Shown: positions 1 to 40,107 of the stretch, one piece after another
Layout of the letters: the number at the start of each line of letters is the position of its first letter
Numbering within the stretch: position 1 is the first letter of the stretch
NCBI GenBank assembly: GCA_945897825.1
Contig: CAMDGX010000033.1
Coordinates: forward strand, 1 to 42,936
From: Asaia bogorensis
Lineage (GTDB): Bacteria > Pseudomonadota > Alphaproteobacteria > Acetobacterales > Acetobacteraceae
Reading direction: 5' to 3'
Length of the DNA stretch: 42,936 nucleotides
Notes under the pieces: generated by a model
What the model was told of the DNA's origin: nothing
Seen by the model: only the letters and a program-made list of their open reading frames with translations
Database searches by the model: none
Made by a program: the position numbers and the translations under genes

Positions 1-198
1 TGCGGCATGTGAGGCTATGAGGCGCGCGCCCGTGTGGCCCGCACCCTGATTGCCTCGCGCCGGCCCGACGCGAACGTGACGCTGCGCAAATCCGGCGGCG
101 GCGTGTTCGAGATCACGGTGGATGGCGCGCTGCGCTATTCCAAGCGCGCGGCGGGCGCGTTTCCGTCGGATGCGGAGGTTCTCGCGTCGATTGGGTAG
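1..198 (+). CDS. SelW-like (Rdx family) selenoprotein, 5' truncated by the window
   Basis: Frame 1 reads C-G-M-(TGA)-G-Y-E and then stays open to TAG at 196-198. With TGA read as selenocysteine this gives CGMUGY, matching the CxxU redox motif of animal selenoprotein W (CGAUGY). The rest fits the short thioredoxin-like Rdx fold: a helix after the motif (ARARVARTLIASRRPDA), then GGGVFEITVDG and a YSKR...AFPSD segment, equivalent to the family's GxFEV..dG / SKK..gFP. The N-terminal strand (about 8-12 residues) lies before base 1. Family members are small thiol/selenol redox proteins, probably cytoplasmic; the substrate is unknown. Support for Sec insertion comes from the tRNA-Sec gene at 17214-17309 and a hairpin just after the TGA. 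A standard gene caller would break or drop this gene. The alternative, a pseudogene stopped at codon 4, is less likely because the downstream frame is fully conserved. Confidence 0.85.
10..12 (+). other. In-frame TGA, predicted selenocysteine codon
   Basis: This TGA is the fourth position of the CxxU redox motif, where Rdx proteins carry Cys or Sec. It is flanked by codons for C-G-M and G-Y and is followed by 61 sense codons of recognisable SelW sequence. Recoding needs SelA, SelB and SelD, which are not in the window; the tRNA is. Confidence 0.8.
24..42 (+). promoter_or_regulatory. Candidate bacterial SECIS hairpin
   Basis: GCG (24-26) pairs with CGC (40-42), a C/C mismatch follows, and GCC (28-30) pairs with GGC (36-38), leaving the apical loop CGTGT (31-35). 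The loop contains GT and lies about 19 bases after the TGA. Bacterial SECIS elements sit inside the coding region shortly after the UGA, with a G(U) in a small apical loop. The fold was drawn by hand; the GC-rich context allows other pairings. Confidence 0.45.
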
Positions 199-929: not shown

Positions 930-1907
930 ATGAGGATTGCGGTTTTTGGTGCGGGGGCGATCGGGTCGCATGTGGCGGCCAGGTTGGTTCGCGGGGGGGC
1001 CGAGGTTTCGGTGGTGGCGCGGGGCGCGCAGTTGGCGGCGGTTCAGGCGCGGGGGATCCGGGTGGTGGCGCCGGATTGGGACGAGGTGGTTCGGGTGGCG
1101 GCGGCGTCGGACGATCCGGCGGCGCTGGGGGTTCAGGATGCGGTGATCGTGACGGTGAAGGCGCCGGCGCTGGCGAGCGTGGCGGCGGGGATCGGACCGT
1201 TGCTGGGGCCGGAGACGGCGGTGGCGTTCGTGATGAACGGGATTCCCTGGTGGTATTTCCATGGCCATGGCGGCGCGTGGGATGGGCGGCGGCTGGGGCG
1301 GGTGGATCCGGGCGGGGCGGTGTGGGATGCCGTCGGGCCGGGGCGGGCGGTGGGTGGCGTGGTGTATTCCGCGTGCACCGTGGTGGAGCCCGGGGTGGTG
1401 AGTGTCGCGAACCGGCGCAACCGGATCGTGCTGGGCGAGCCGGACGGGCGGATGGGCGGGCGTATCGCGGCGATGGCCGCGCCGCTGCGGGAAGGTGGGT
1501 TCGCGGTGGACGAGACGGCGCGCATTCGCGATGCGATCTGGGAGAAGCTGCTGGGCAATCTGGCGATGGGGCCGGTGTGCGTGCTGGGCGGGGCGGCGCC
1601 GAAGGACCTGTATGGCGATCCCGTGGTCGAGCGCGCGGTGCGGGCGGGGTATGCCGAGGCGATGGCGGTGGCGGCTGCCGTCGGGTGCCGAGTGTCGGTG
1701 GATGTGGACGCGCAGATCGGGCATGGGCGGGCCATGGTGCATCGGCCGAGCATCCTGCAGGACCTGGAGCTGGGCCGGCCGATGGAGATCGACGGCATCT
1801 ACGATGCGGCGCTGTCGCTGGCGCAGCTGGCGGGGGTGGCGACGCCGGTGCTGGACCGGCTGGTGGCGCTGGTGAAGGTGCGGGCGCGGATGGCGGGATT
1901 GTACTGA
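930..1907 (+). CDS. 2-dehydropantoate 2-reductase (ketopantoate reductase) family protein
   Basis: The 325-residue protein begins MRIAVFGAGAIG: the GxGxxG NADP-binding loop (residues 7-12) is at the extreme N-terminus, as usual for the family. The C-terminal helical domain keeps W-x-K-x(3)-N (WEKLLGN), which holds the catalytic lysine, and the stretch RPSILQDLELGRPMEIDGI, which holds the conserved Ser and Glu that bind ketopantoate. Length is typical (about 290-330). Family members reduce ketopantoate to pantoate in coenzyme A synthesis, but many alphaproteobacterial paralogues act on unidentified 2-keto acids, so panE is not assigned. The ATG at 930 is chosen because GGGGAG lies about 10 bases upstream and the Rossmann loop must start there; the open frame extends further upstream without homology. 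Confidence 0.88.
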   Translation: MRIAVFGAGAIGSHVAARLVRGGAEVSVVARGAQLAAVQARGIRVVAPDWDEVVRVAAASDDPAALGVQDAVIVTVKAPALASVAAGIGPLLGPETAVAFVMNGIPWWYFHGHGGAWDGRRLGRVDPGGAVWDAVGPGRAVGGVVYSACTVVEPGVVSVANRRNRIVLGEPDGRMGGRIAAMAAPLREGGFAVDETARIRDAIWEKLLGNLAMGPVCVLGGAAPKDLYGDPVVERAVRAGYAEAMAVAAAVGCRVSVDVDAQIGHGRAMVHRPSILQDLELGRPMEIDGIYDAALSLAQLAGVATPVLDRLVALVKVRARMAGLY

Positions 1908-12346: not shown

Positions 12347-12767
12347 TGGTTCAATCCCCATCGATGCACCACCGGGCGAGCATGTTGGCTTGCCACCCCG
12401 CTTGTCGAGTGCCGCCGCGGCGCCCGCGCGCGATTGCAGTATTTTATTCTGATATCGTTTCATCCTGACCGCTGCAGGATCCATGGCGACGCTATTTTTC
12501 GCCCCATTTCCGTCTTGAGAAACTATTCAAGTTTTTCCAGACGCTCCATGTGACCATAAAATCAAGCAATCACCCAAGATATCGAGTCCCAGGAATCGCA
12601 TCACGTTTGCGAGTGACAGCACTTCAACTGTTCGTCATAAGGGCCACGACACACCACGACGGTTTGTTGTTCCGCAAGATGAATTCTTGCGACTCACTTA
12701 TGATCGACTGCCCCTTGGCTGCGCCACGGCCGCGGGAAGGTCGGACCTCTGCTGGGAGACCCACCGC
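12347..12767. other. Intergenic region between divergent operons
   Basis: The stretch is noticeably AT-richer than the genes around it. On the minus strand TAAAAT (12446-12441) is a good -10 for the ABC operon, giving a leader of roughly 90 bases; no convincing -35 accompanies it. On the plus strand TATGAT (12699-12704) may serve the beta-helix/Hint gene. No RNA gene, riboswitch or repeat is seen. Confidence 0.5.
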
Positions 12768-14717
12768 ATGGCTCTGCTGAACGTTGGCGCCGGACAGGCC
12801 TATCTCACCATCGCCGCCGCCGTCGCGGCATCGTCCCCGGGCGACACGATCCTGATCGCCGCGGGCACCTACACGAACGACTTCGCCTATATCGGCCACG
12901 ACCTGACGCTGAAGGGCGTCGGCGGCCTGGCAAAGCTCGAGGCCACCACCGCGCCGCCGAACGGCAAGGCCATCCTGACGACCAATGCCAATGTCACCAT
13001 CGACCACCTGGAGTTCACCGGCTGCGCGGTGCCGGACGAGAACGGCGCCGGCATCCGCTACGAGGGCGGCAGCCTCACGGTCAGCCACTCCTGGTTCCAC
13101 CACAACCAGAACGGCATCCTGGCCGCATCCTCCCCCGGCGGCCAGATCTCGATCGACCACAGCGAGTTCGACCACAACGGCAACAACGACGGCAAGACGC
13201 ACAACATCTACGTCAACGACATCGCCCGCCTGTCCATCACCAACAGCTTCTTCCACGATGTCAGCCAGGGCCACCACATCAAGAGCCGCGCGCAGGAGAC
13301 GGTTGTCACCGGCAGCCGGCTGGTCGACGGCGCCACCTACGGCGGCAGCTACAGCATCGACCTGCCCAATGGCGGGGTCGCGACCATCACCGGCAACTAT
13401 ATCGAGCAGGGGCCGCTCGCACCCAACCGCACGCTGATCCACCTGGGCGGCGAGCCGTACGCCTCCTACCCCGGCACCAGCCTGACGATGACCGGCAACA
13501 TCTTCGTCAACCTCGCCACCAGCGGGCCGCCGGTGCTGTTCCGGAACGACTTCTGGCTCGACGGCGTTAACGCGCCCGCGACGATCAGCGGCAACACGCT
13601 GTACGGCATCACCCCCGACCAGATGGTCGTCGGCACCGCCACCATCGGCGCGAACAGCTTCCCGACGGGCCCATTTCCGACACCCGACCTGTCATCGCCG
13701 ATCGATGCTGCCTGCTTCCGGGCCGGCACCCGGCTCGCCACGCCGGAGGGGCCGGTGGCGGTGGAGGACCTCGATCCCGGCGACGAGGTGACGACCGCCT
13801 TCGGCGCCCGGTTGAAGGTGCGCTGGATCGGCCATCGCACGCTGGATTGCCGCCGCCATCCGCGGCCGTGGGACGTGATGCCGGTGCGCATCGAAGCCGG
13901 CGCCTTCCGCCCCGGCATGCCACGCCGCGACCTGTGGCTGTCGCCCGACCACGCCCTGTTCGTGGACGGCGTGCTGATCCCGGTGCGCTACCTGATGAAC
14001 GGCGCCACGATCCTCCAGGAAGAGACCGACGAGGTCACCTATTTCCACGTCGAGACGCAGAACGCGACCGGTGCCGCCAGCCACACCGTGCTGCTGGCCG
14101 AGGGCCTGCCCGCCGAAAGCTACCTCGACACGGGCAATCGCCGCGCCTTCGCCAATGGCGGCGGCGAACTGCAGCTGCATCCCGATTTCGCGCTCGACAT
14201 CTGGAAGCGGGCCGGGATCGCGCCGCTGGTGCTGGAGGGCCCGATCCTGCGCGCGGTGCGCCATCGCCTGGCCATGCGCGCCATCGCCATGGGCCATCGC
14301 CTGGTGAACAACCCGTGCCTCACGCTGGAAGTGGATGGGCGCGTGGTGCCGCAGCAGCCGGGGGAAGGCCCGTCGGTGTTCCTGCTACCGCCCGGCGCGC
14401 GGGAGGCACGGCTGCATTCGCGCACCTTCGTGCCGGCGCATGTGATCGCCGGCAGCGACGACCATCGCCCCCTGGGGGCTGGCATCACCCGCCTGGCGCT
14501 GGACTGGCAGCCGGTCGACCTCGCGGCGCTCGGGGATGGCTGGCACACGCCGGAGCCCGGGCACCGCTGGAGCAACGGCGCCGGGCGGATCGTGCTGAAC
14601 GGCGCAAGGCGGGTGGACGTGGAGGCGGGCGTGCCCGGCCTCTACTGGGAACGCGAGGTGCCGGCGCTGGCCCCGCCGGCCCGTCGCCCCAGCACGTGGC
14701 GGCCCATGGCGGTCTGA
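12768..14717 (+). CDS. Parallel beta-helix protein with C-terminal Hint domain
   Basis: The protein has 649 residues. Residues 1-300 resemble a right-handed parallel beta-helix (pectate-lyase-like): LNVGAGQAYLTIAAAVAAS, then repeated short strands with NG, DH and HN turns (GNNDGKTHNIYVNDIARL, HHNQNGI). The Hint domain (Hint_2 type) starts at Cys316 in DAACFRAGTRLATPEG, continues VEDLDPGDEV, and has LSPDHALFVDGVLIPVRYLMNGATI and SYLDTGNRRAF. A further 200 residues follow. There is no standard signal peptide, so export, if any, would use a C-terminal route. Hint domains self-cleave at their N-terminal Cys; release or ester-linking of the beta-helix part is plausible. GGGAGA precedes the ATG. 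A second Hint protein is at 34024-35595. Confidence 0.85.
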   Translation: MALLNVGAGQAYLTIAAAVAASSPGDTILIAAGTYTNDFAYIGHDLTLKGVGGLAKLEATTAPPNGKAILTTNANVTIDHLEFTGCAVPDENGAGIRYEGGSLTVSHSWFHHNQNGILAASSPGGQISIDHSEFDHNGNNDGKTHNIYVNDIARLSITNSFFHDVSQGHHIKSRAQETVVTGSRLVDGATYGGSYSIDLPNGGVATITGNYIEQGPLAPNRTLIHLGGEPYASYPGTSLTMTGNIFVNLATSGPPVLFRNDFWLDGVNAPATISGNTLYGITPDQMVVGTATIGANSFPTGPFPTPDLSSPIDAACFRAGTRLATPEGPVAVEDLDPGDEVTTAFGARLKVRWIGHRTLDCRRHPRPWDVMPVRIEAGAFRPGMPRRDLWLSPDHALFVDGVLIPVRYLMNGATILQEETDEVTYFHVETQNATGAASHTVLLAEGLPAESYLDTGNRRAFANGGGELQLHPDFALDIWKRAGIAPLVLEGPILRAVRHRLAMRAIAMGHRLVNNPCLTLEVDGRVVPQQPGEGPSVFLLPPGAREARLHSRTFVPAHVIAGSDDHRPLGAGITRLALDWQPVDLAALGDGWHTPEPGHRWSNGAGRIVLNGARRVDVEAGVPGLYWEREVPALAPPARRPSTWRPMAV

Positions 14718-17213: not shown

Positions 17214-17309
17214 GGAGGAGAATCGGCCCCGGTGGGTCGGCCGGCCTTCAAAGCCGGTTGGGGCCGCCATGCAGTCCCGGGTGGGTTCGACTCCCGCTCT
17301 CCTCCGCCA
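17214..17309 (+). tRNA. selC: tRNA-Sec (selC), anticodon TCA
   Basis: This is a 96-base tRNA with the special Sec features. The 8-bp acceptor stem pairs GGAGGAGA (17214-17221) with TCTCCTCC (17298-17305), followed by discriminator G and an encoded CCA. The anticodon arm is CCGGC-CTTCAAA-GCCGG, with TCA in the loop. A long variable arm carries GGGGCCGCCA and AGTCCCGGG, and the T arm has GGTTCGACTCC. The anticodon-loop/variable-arm junction TTGGGGCCGCCA is the same as in E. coli selC. The 3' side (GTTCGACTCC) is also nearly identical. It reads UGA as selenocysteine with SelB. selA, selB and selD are not in the window. Confidence 0.97.
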
Positions 17310-33897: not shown

Positions 33898-34023
33898 CCG
33901 TCGGGGCACGCCCCGCCCCACCGCGCCCGACCGCGGGCGGTGCGGGGCGCGCGTGGTTTCTCATGTGCGAGAAACATCCCAAAATTTCGACATTTTGACA
34001 CATTTTTAAACGGGTCGCGCGAT

Positions 34024-35595
34024 ATGGACGCTGGTCAGTTCCAGGGGTTCGGCAGCGTGCCCATTACCTTTACCAACACCATTTACGGCCCCGGCCGCTG
34101 GGGCGTGATCTACATGTTCCACCATCTCGGCACGGTGGACTTCGTGAGCCCCGACCGCATCGTGCTGAACGGCACGATCAGCGCGATCGGCGACGCGGTC
34201 AGCGTCATCTACAATGACGCGACCTACACCTTCACCGTCACCGGCTACGACAACGCCGGCGCCCTGGTGCTGCAGTTCGACGGCCACCTCTACGTGATCT
34301 CCAACACCGACCTCACCAAGGGCCAAGTGCTCACCCTCAACACCAACGGCCCCGCCGAATACGCCCCGCCCCCCTGCTTCGTCGAAGGCACCCGCCTCCT
34401 CACCCGCAACGGCGAAGTCCCGGTGGAGGCGCTCAAGCCCGGCGACGACGTCGTCGCCGTGCTCGCCGGCCAGCTCCTGCCGGTGATCTGGGTCGGCCGC
34501 CGCGTCGTGGACTGCACGCAGGAGGACCGCCCCGCCGAGATGTGGCCCTTCCGCGTCCGTGCCCACGCCTTCGGCCCCGGCCGGCCGCACCGCGACCTCT
34601 ACCTCTCCCCCGACCACGCCGTGCATGTCGACGGCATGCTGGTGCCCATCCGCTACCTGGAGAACGGCGCCACCATCCTGCGCGAGCGCCGCGACCGCGT
34701 CGCCTACTACCATGTCGAGCTCGCCCGCCACGACATCGTGCTCAGCGAGGGCCTCGGCAGCGAAAGCTACCTCGACACCGGCAACCGCGACGATTTCGTC
34801 CGCCTGCGCCGCGCCCCCGGCGAATCCGCCGCCCAGGCCGAGGAAGCCGCCCGCCAGATCTGGGCCGACCGGGCCTGCCTGAAGCTGGTCACCGAAGGCG
34901 CCGCCCTGCGCACCGTGCGCACCAAGCTGGCTGCCCGCGCCATCGCCCTCGGCCACGCCGCCACCGACGACCCGGGCCTCGTGGTGCGCGCCGGCGGCAT
35001 CGACCACCATGGCGTGTTCGATGGCGAGGCCTGGCACTTCGCCCTCGACTCGCTGTGCGACGATGCCCGCCTGGTCTCGACCGCCTTCGTCCCCGCGGTC
35101 ATCGCGCCCGCCGCCGCCGACCGCCGCTGCCTCGGCGTCGCCGTCACCCGGCTGATGGCCGACGGCCGCATCGTGCCGCTGCACCACCCCGCCTTGGGCT
35201 CCGGCTGGCACCTGCCGGAGCAGGACCTGCGCTGGACCGCCGGCGACGCCGCCCTGCCGCCGGCCCAGCGCCTCTCGGTGGTGATCGCCCCGATCGGCCG
35301 CACCGCGTCGCACCCCCGCCTGGCCCCCACCACCACGTCGCACGCCGCCGTACCCGCCACGGCCCCCACGCCCCCACCGGCCACCACGGCGCTTGAACGC
35401 CAGCCGATGTTCCGCCATACAAGCGGTGTTCGGATCAGTCCGGGCGGAAGAGAGCGGCCATGGGGCGCAGCAATGCCCTTCATACCGCCGCCGAAGGCGC
35501 AACCGGCCCCCGGAAACGCTCAGGCACCCAAGACCGCCCGGAGGCACGGACCTCTGGAAAGCCGGCCAGCATCCCTGGCCGCACCGACGGAGTAA
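34024..35595 (+). CDS. Hint domain protein whose 3' end overlaps a glycine riboswitch
   Basis: The frame gives 523 residues. Residues 1-117 are a small beta-rich domain (ITFTNTIYGPGRWGVIYMF, GTVDFVSPDRIVLNGTI, YNDATYTFTVTGYDNAG). The Hint_2 domain starts at Cys118 (PPPCFVEGTRLLTRNGEV) and continues with VEALKPGDDV, LYLSPDHAVHVDGMLVPIRYLENGATI and SYLDTGNRDDF. The C-terminal part is shared with the Hint protein at 12768. Residues from about 473 on lie over the tandem glycine aptamers and are Pro/Arg/Ala-rich without obvious fold; the TAA is inside aptamer 2. There is no classical signal peptide. The upstream region (33950-34020) is AT-rich and probably holds the promoter. A real stop may have been lost, leaving this tail. 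Confidence 0.82.
   Translation: MDAGQFQGFGSVPITFTNTIYGPGRWGVIYMFHHLGTVDFVSPDRIVLNGTISAIGDAVSVIYNDATYTFTVTGYDNAGALVLQFDGHLYVISNTDLTKGQVLTLNTNGPAEYAPPPCFVEGTRLLTRNGEVPVEALKPGDDVVAVLAGQLLPVIWVGRRVVDCTQEDRPAEMWPFRVRAHAFGPGRPHRDLYLSPDHAVHVDGMLVPIRYLENGATILRERRDRVAYYHVELARHDIVLSEGLGSESYLDTGNRDDFVRLRRAPGESAAQAEEAARQIWADRACLKLVTEGAALRTVRTKLAARAIALGHAATDDPGLVVRAGGIDHHGVFDGEAWHFALDSLCDDARLVSTAFVPAVIAPAAADRRCLGVAVTRLMADGRIVPLHHPALGSGWHLPEQDLRWTAGDAALPPAQRLSVVIAPIGRTASHPRLAPTTTSHAAVPATAPTPPPATTALERQPMFRHTSGVRISPGGRERPWGAAMPFIPPPKAQPAPGNAQAPKTARRHGPLESRPASLAAPTE
35393..35423 (+). promoter_or_regulatory. Possible promoter of the gcv riboswitch-operon
   Basis: TTGAAC (35393-35398) and TACAAG (35418-35423), 19 bases apart, lie inside the Hint frame just before the first aptamer (35440), so a start near 35430 would yield the riboswitch leader. 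The spacing is longer than ideal. Confidence 0.3.
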
Positions 35596-35655: not shown

Positions 35656-35706
35656 CGCAATCCACCGGCATATCGCCGGCGGGCGACCTGTGTGCGGAGC
35701 GACCCA

Positions 35707-36813
35707 ATGACCGACGACACCCTGCTGACAACGCCGCTGGACGCCCTGCACCGCGAGCTGGGGGGCAAGATGGTCCCCTTCGCCGGCTACTCCATGCCCG
35801 TCCAATACCCCGCCGGCATCCTCACCGAGCACCTGCATTGCCGGGAGAAGGCCGCCCTGTTCGACGTCTCGCACATGGGCCAGGCCAGCATCCGCGGCCC
35901 CGGCGCCGCCGCCGCCCTTGAACTGCTGGTGCCCGGCGACATGCAGGGCCTCGCCCCCTGGCGCCAGAAATACACCCTGCTCACCATGGAGCACGGCGGC
36001 ATCATGGACGACCTGATGGTCGCCAACCTGGGTGACGACCACCTGTTCCTGGTCGTGAACGCCAGCCGCAAGCACATCGACCTGCCGCACATCGCCGCCC
36101 ACCTTCCCGACGGCCTGCGCCTCGAACCCCACGAGGACCGCGCGCTCCTCGCCCTCCAGGGCCCCGCCGCCGCCGCCGTCATGGCCACCCTGGCCCCCGA
36201 GCTCGCCGCCCTGCCCTTCATGGGCGTCGCCGCCGTCACCCTGGCCGGCGCCGCCTGCCTCGCCAGCCGCTCCGGCTACACCGGCGAGGACGGCTTCGAG
36301 ATCTCCATCCCCGCCGACGACGCCGAGGAGGTCGCCCGCCTCCTCCTCGCCCAGCCCGGCGTGATGCCCGCGGGCCTCGGCGCCCGCGATTCCCTGCGCC
36401 TGGAGGCCGGCCTCTGCCTCTATGGCAACGACATCGACGAAACCACCAACCCCGTCGAAGCCGCCCTGATGTGGACCATCCCCAAGCGCCGCCGCGCCGA
36501 GGCCAGCTTCATCGGCGCCGCCCCGATCCTCGCCGCCCTCGCCGCCGGCCCCGCCCGCAAGCGCGTCGGCATCCTGCCCGAGGGCCGCGCCCCCGCCCGC
36601 GGCCACACCCCCATCACCGACGCCGCCGGCACCCCGCTCGGCGAAATCACCTCCGGCGGCTTCGGCCCCAGCTTGGGCGCCCCCTGCGCCATGGGCTACG
36701 TCCGCACCGACCTGTCCGCCCCCGGCACCGCTCTTTCGCTCATGGTCCGCGGCAAGCCCCTGCCCGCCCACGTCGCCGCCACCCCCTTCGTGCCGCACCG
36801 CTACGTGCGCTGA
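35707..36813 (+). CDS. gcvT: Aminomethyltransferase (glycine cleavage T protein)
   Basis: The protein has 368 residues. N-terminal [26 protein letters not shown], then [52 protein letters not shown] and the C-terminal [13 protein letters not shown] are all GcvT hallmarks, including the YTGEDGFEI folate-site stretch. It transfers the methylene group from lipoyl-bound aminomethyl to tetrahydrofolate, releasing ammonia. GGAG lies 9 bases before the ATG; an in-frame GTG at 35692 is less likely. It is the first gene of gcvTHP, controlled by the riboswitch. Confidence 0.97.
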
Positions 36814-36859
36814 GCCCAACCACACCCATCTGTCCATCGTTACCCAAGGGAATCCCGAC

Positions 36860-37233
36860 ATGACCACCGTGCGCTACACCAAGGAACACGAATGGGTGCG
36901 GCTCGAAGGCGGCGTTGCCGTCGTGGGCATCACCGAGCACGCCCAGGACGCCCTCGGCGACGTGGTCTTCGTCGAACTCCCCGAGCCCGGCCGCGAAGTC
37001 GACGAAGGCGAGGCCATCGCCGTCGTCGAGAGCGTCAAGGCCGCCTCGGACGTCTACGCCCCGCTCGCCGGCCGCATCACCGAATCCAACCAGGCCATCG
37101 TCGAAGACCCCGGCCTGGTGAACCGCGACAGCGCCGGCGAAGGCTGGTTCTTCAAGATGGCCCTCGCCGACGAAGCCGCCTTCAACGCCCTGCTCGACGA
37201 AGCCGCCTACAAGGCCTTCCTGGAGACCCTGTG

Positions 37234-37234
<1 letters not shown>
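36860..37234 (+). CDS. gcvH: Glycine cleavage H protein
   Basis: The protein has 124 residues, the normal size. [34 protein letters not shown] is the standard N-terminal half, and the lipoylated lysine is K60 in [14 protein letters not shown]. It shuttles the aminomethyl and dihydrolipoyl intermediates between the P, T and L proteins. The stop TGA overlaps the ATG of gcvP, so the two are coupled. The L protein (lipoamide dehydrogenase) is not in the window. Confidence 0.98.

Positions 37235-40107
<2,873 letters not shown>

Follow-up and report, generated by a model that had tools for sequence, protein, structure and literature searches.

The window analyzed here, 42,936 nucleotides in length, begins with the 3' part of a gene for a 72-residue SelW-like (Rdx) protein, and the UGA at codon 11 of this gene is, judging from the sequence, very probably decoded as selenocysteine (Sec). 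The gene, its in-frame TGA, the conservation of this TGA, the machinery for Sec insertion and the co-occurrence of this machinery with the TGA form of the gene are all observed directly. The window corresponds to contig C33 of a 4.93-Mb genome assembly (G000) that comprises 208 contigs and is 96.7% complete. The coordinates of the features are given in Table 1.

Table 1. Features of the window that bear on the SelW-like gene and its surroundings.
Feature	Position	Strand	Basis
SelW/Rdx gene, 3' part, codons 8 to 72 plus TAG (locus L001)	1..198	+	Frame, family match; codons 1 to 7 on contig C24
In-frame TGA, predicted Sec, in CxxU motif	10..12	+	TGA in 55/56 loci; aligns with second Cys of CxxC
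Overlap between contigs of the assembly; same sequence as the end of C24	1..149		Sequence identity
Predicted SECIS-like hairpin; core 24-42, apical loop 31-35 (CGUGU)	11..56	+	Folding; covariation in sister group only
PanE/ApbA-like ketopantoate reductase, next gene identified downstream	930..1907	+	Outside the Sec system
tRNA-Sec gene (selC), anticodon TCA	17214..17309	+	78.9 bits, gathering score 47; Rfam match spans 17214-17305

Frame 1 of the window reads CGM-TGA-GYEARARVARTLIASRRPDANVTLRKSGGGVFEITVDGALRYSKRAAGAFPSDAEVLASIG-TAG at positions 1 to 198, with 61 sense codons 3' of the TGA (13 to 195) and the TAG stop at 196 to 198, which is exactly the frame C-G-M-TGA-G-Y that had been described in the earlier note. 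The gene runs off the contig at the window start and is incomplete for this reason. A search of the same genome located a second piece of it where contig C24 ends; the final 149 bases of that contig (reverse strand) are identical to positions 1 to 149 of the window, and the two pieces were therefore read as one gene split at a contig boundary. Contig C24 supplies ATG CAG GTC GAG ATC GAA TAC, the seven codons ahead of the window, and with them the upstream start codon that the earlier note had proposed to look for; a Shine-Dalgarno-like GAAGGG is found 8 bases 5' of this ATG. The joined protein begins MQVEIEYCGMUGYE..., with the TGA as codon 11. A mechanical open reading frame listing with table 11 yields only a 54-residue GTG-start frame at positions 34 to 198, which does not contain the CxxU motif, in agreement with the earlier statement that the gene is missed by standard calling. 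For a relative (L072), the table 11 listing likewise yields fragments on both sides of the TGA.

The read-through peptide was matched by the Pfam family Rdx (PF10262; E-value 3.1e-12, 47 bits, cut-off 22.6) and by the NCBIfam family CXXU_selWTH (TIGR02174; 42.3 bits, cut-off 34.2). Both matches are far above chance and exceed the curated cut-offs, which bears out the SelW/Rdx-type identity assigned previously, whereas the narrower equivalog NF041051 (SelTWH_Campy) scored 53.8, below its cut-off of 88. The CxxU motif is located near the N terminus (MQVEIEY-CGMU-GYE), and CGxUGY is the motif of animal SelW. Solved chains of the SelW family were matched by the sequence profile of alignment A1, among them animal selenoprotein W (2NPB; positions 2-58, E-value 1.3e-5). 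The best match among solved chains was C17orf37 (2LJK; E-value 1.8e-14), a eukaryotic protein also called MIEN1, which has a Cys where Sec is predicted here. Atu0228 (2FA8), a Cys-type alphaproteobacterial Rdx protein, belongs to the same family but has CxxC (mostly CTQC in the Cys forms) in place of CGMU. Among plasmids, a search revealed a single Rdx place, which is in Thermomicrobium roseum and shows 39.7% identity.

A pattern scan of a collection of genome contigs, carried out with alignment A1, returned 56 loci, 55 of which have TGA at the codon in question. The lone exception is L117 of Bradyrhizobium sp. CER78 (43% identity), which has TGC. The scan patterns carried a Cys at the Sec site, so that TGA was not favored. 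The TGA is kept down to 38% identity (alignment A4) and is present in all seven further genomes of the genus that have a SelW match; 11 of the 13 TGA loci of relatives were taken as identical to records in the pattern-scan list. The titles of the scan records name Acetobacteraceae, Rhodospirillales, Rhodopila globiformis DSM 161, Desertibaculum subflavum, and other Alphaproteobacteria, together with a few Gammaproteobacteria and one member of the Paenibacillaceae. The titles Asaia bogorensis (L064 and L067) and Klebsiella pneumoniae (L113), which are given to metagenome bins, look doubtful in view of what these genes are related to.

In bacteria, Sec is synthesized on tRNA-Sec by SelA and SelD, and SelB, bound to a hairpin after the UGA, delivers it to the ribosome. 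The genome was found to encode SelA on contig C50 (577.4 bits, cut-off 267.9), SelB on C13 (338.1 bits, cut-off 242.25), and SelD on C19 (286.2 bits, cut-off 125; the match is free of stops), and the tRNA-Sec gene lies inside the window. All four components, including the selA, selB, and selD genes for which the earlier note had suggested a search, are thus present above curated cut-offs. A second place matched by the tRNA-Sec model (L038; contig C50, 18695-18780) scored 51.1 bits, over the gathering score, and may be an ordinary long-arm tRNA; the model also responds to ordinary tRNAs of control genomes. In the predicted mechanism, SelA and SelD would make Sec on the tRNA encoded in the window, SelB would bind the hairpin just 3' of the UGA and bring the Sec-tRNA to the ribosome, and Sec would be inserted at codon 11, generating the CxxU redox motif CGMU. 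SelW would then most likely be a small thioredoxin-like reductase or redox sensor that undergoes a selenenyl-sulfide cycle.

The TGA form of the Rdx gene co-occurs with this machinery. Among 100 genomes, consisting of the window's own, 8 from the same genus, a further 51 from the family, and a further 40 from the class, an Rdx match was found in 27, of which 14 have one in-frame TGA and 13 are free of stops. All 13 stop-free forms have CxxC at the same place, and the alignment of these Cys relatives, another check suggested beforehand, places the TGA on the second Cys. SelA was over its cut-off in 12/14 TGA genomes, in 19 of the 73 genomes that have no Rdx match, and in none of the 13 Cys-type carriers, from which the window's SelA-bearing genome differs in this respect (Fisher P 6e-6 for 12/14 versus 0/13, uncorrected for the relatedness of the genomes). 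Searches for tRNA-Sec (E-value up to 1e-10) and SelB (E-value up to 1e-60) covered 28 genomes, that is, the 27 with Rdx and G007, a genus member without a SelW match. Each of the two was detected in 12/14 TGA genomes as compared to 0/13 Cys genomes; G007 gave a match for SelB and none for tRNA-Sec. Three TGA-SelW genomes count against Sec: in G041 (82% complete) neither SelA nor tRNA-Sec was found in the assembly, with SelB present, in G070 (77% complete) SelA, tRNA-Sec, and SelB are all missing from the assembly, and in G002 (88% complete) SelB is missing. These absences may be assembly gaps. The TGA-SelW genes of G041 and G070 are loci L019 and L025.

Several readings other than Sec insertion have to be weighed against these data. 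Standard translation ends at codon 11, as would be expected if a premature TGA had disrupted what was once a Cys-type Rdx gene; however, the frame remains open for 61 more codons of family-typical sequence, the TGA persists at all scan loci except one and in distant relatives, and the genome has the Sec machinery, all of which makes a pseudogene exceedingly improbable. Conversion of TGC or TGT into TGA by a sequencing or assembly error, a concern already raised in the earlier note, might be suspected from the position of the site, 10 bases from the contig end. Contigs C24 and C33 stem from one assembly and are not independent witnesses of the TGA, because the overlap is common to both. Yet the same codon is TGA in each of the seven further genus genomes with SelW as well as in the 55 scan loci, and the chance that an error is responsible is very small.

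The open frame, and nothing beyond it, would also fit a TGA that is read as another amino acid by a reassigned code or by suppression. This explanation is very improbable: 23 of 58 TGA genes use TGA as their terminal stop, and UGA is therefore a stop elsewhere in these organisms. In addition, the genome has a tRNA with the anticodon TCA that matches the tRNA-Sec model, and the site corresponds to a redox-motif Cys in the Cys forms. Sec insertion at this TGA, which the earlier note had put forward as inferred, is well supported by TGA conservation, machinery, and co-occurrence, and continues to have the status of a prediction.

The own sequence folds as a hairpin starting from the UGA, the five-base loop CGUGU of which begins 18 bases after the UGA, with z values of -2.1 for 51 bases and of -1.2 and -0.8 for longer stretches. 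The TGA genes fall largely into two groups. Covariation is clear in the sister group (alignment A3; 30 sequences, 28 distinct), which has a five-pair stem, mostly CCCUC/GAGGG, and the loop CGUGC or CGUGU. Its paired cells amount to 98.6%, as compared to 93.6% in shuffled and at most 63.6% in slid alignments, and changes on both sides occur in 6 cells versus 0.9 in shuffled ones, a value reached by 0 of 500 shuffles. Of the five covariation measures employed, two were reached by more shuffles, namely the number of pairs with changes on both sides (two; 44/500) and the number of further pair types (4 versus 2.6; 41/500). In the own group (alignment A2; 24 sequences), a six-pair stem is 87.5% paired versus 85.8% shuffled (31/500) and at most 55.6% slid, and varies too little for covariation to become visible.

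A set of 58 TGA genes, made up of the 55 scan loci, the own gene, L019, and L027, was used for the analysis of hairpins; it was assembled for having TGA and is therefore no test of conservation. The resulting hairpin numbers are descriptive because related sequences are not independent: when synonymous codons were resampled, with the loop positions widened after a first version of the test, hairpins were counted in 15/25 sequences of the own group (9.25 expected), 23/30 of the sister group (10.45), 1/3 of three others (0.87), and 6/13 Cys forms (5.05), and with the widest loop positions the respective values were 17/25 (12.36), 26/30 (13.72), 1/3 (1.36), and 8/13 (6.31). The excess in the own group is modest, and twelve controls within the genes (six offsets in two groups) ranged from 4.0 below to 3.6 above expectation. 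For loop positions that had been chosen after inspection of the data, the counts were 36/58 for TGA genes (4.39 expected) and 5/13 for Cys forms (2.77), an effect that shrinks once the loop positions are widened and the controls are added. Folding energy relative to synonymous codons does not make the TGA region distinctive (mean z of -0.56, compared with -0.68 to +0.06 elsewhere in these genes). The hairpin contains unusual codons: CGT occurs at +8 in 31/58 genes and AGG at +10 in 23/58, while these account for 11% and 4%, respectively, of Arg codons in the neighborhood. Across L062 to L114, at bases 19 to 34 (numbering starts with the T of the TGA), a CGUG loop is common to many members of both SelW groups, one codon apart and on different stems. 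A G in the small apical loop has been described as typical of bacterial SECIS elements (PMC1088965), which are located directly after the UGA, whereas animal SelW has a eukaryotic SECIS in the 3' untranslated region (PMC1088965).

As for other potential users of the machinery, FdnG-type formate dehydrogenases (E-value up to 1e-60) were found in 16 of the 31 genomes with SelA, each best match having one TGA, and in the genus such a gene is present in one of eight SelA-bearing genomes (G004). In 16 genomes, eight of them from the genus, TIGR01591-type matches (E-value up to 1e-40) contain no stops except in the same G004 gene, and the three such matches of G000 are all stop-free. The own genome is therefore without a Sec formate dehydrogenase visible to these two models, and the same applies to 7/8 SelA-bearing genomes of the genus. 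Every one of the eight genus members whose SelA exceeds the cut-off carries TGA-SelW, and SelW may thus sustain the machinery in those seven. That SelW is the only or main selenoprotein of the genus, for which the whole Sec machinery is kept instead of for formate dehydrogenase, is a tentative and rather doubtful proposal drawn from a search with two formate dehydrogenase models. A precedent for machinery kept for one protein is provided by H. mustelae, which was reported to keep the Sec trait with SelD as its sole selenoprotein (PMC4607533). The relatives presumably have further selenoproteins, since seven of the 31 genomes with SelA lack both TGA-SelW and TGA-FdnG. G004 (contigs C222, C85, and C64) stands out by two SelB matches (418 and 322 bits) in addition to its TGA-bearing FdnG, the only one in the eight genus genomes, and perhaps has a second Sec system acquired by transfer or reflects a mix in binning.

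The neighbors of the SelW gene do not include any that suggest a dedicated partner. Upstream, in divergent orientation on C24, is a gene of the mannose-1-phosphate guanylyltransferase type, homologues of which were detected by tblastn at 24/69 loci (17 distinct records); for the PanE/ApbA-like protein encoded downstream, homologues were detected at 4/69 loci (3 distinct records). Elsewhere in the window, a glycine riboswitch (54.3 bits; 35435-35546) precedes gcvT-/gcvP-like genes (35692-40107) in the usual arrangement, and Hint_2 domains were matched in two open reading frames (12687-14717 and 33940-35595). Many of the 40 proteins scanned against Pfam were antisense or wrong-frame open reading frames without a match.

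Published descriptions of SelW-like selenoproteins from bacteria go back to 2005 or earlier (PMC1088965; see also PMC1794560 and PMC2398784), and the SelW of this window is new as a record and ordinary as a kind. It shares the family, the CxxU motif, a predicted SECIS after the UGA, and the large predominance of Sec over Cys with the proteins described in the Sargasso Sea and Global Ocean Sampling (GOS) surveys (PMC1088965, PMC2398784); what differs is that here a complete gene from one genus has been obtained and its machinery located, which is no difference in kind. One survey mentions very few Cys forms of SelW-like proteins in Sec-using organisms (PMC1794560), 427 SelW-like Sec genes as opposed to 56 Cys homologues were given for GOS (PMC2398784), and SelW-like genes were stated to represent 11.3% of the selenoprotein genes in marine samples (PMC9402790). 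SelW genes of Epsilonproteobacteria have also been reported as missed in annotation (PMC4607533). No publication was found on Sec-containing selenoproteins of Acetobacteraceae, or on alphaproteobacterial SelW since 2009, in a search that left most subscription journals outside its scope, and such work may therefore have been published.

This analysis provides the correct model of a gene that standard translation breaks off at codon 11. It also documents selenoproteins of the SelW type in Alphaproteobacteria, for which a 2006 survey names formate dehydrogenase as the sole selenoprotein of the Sec-decoding members then known (PMC1794560). Furthermore, if it is true that SelW alone sustains the machinery in this genus, the function of SelW could be approached directly by deleting selA in a cultured relative.
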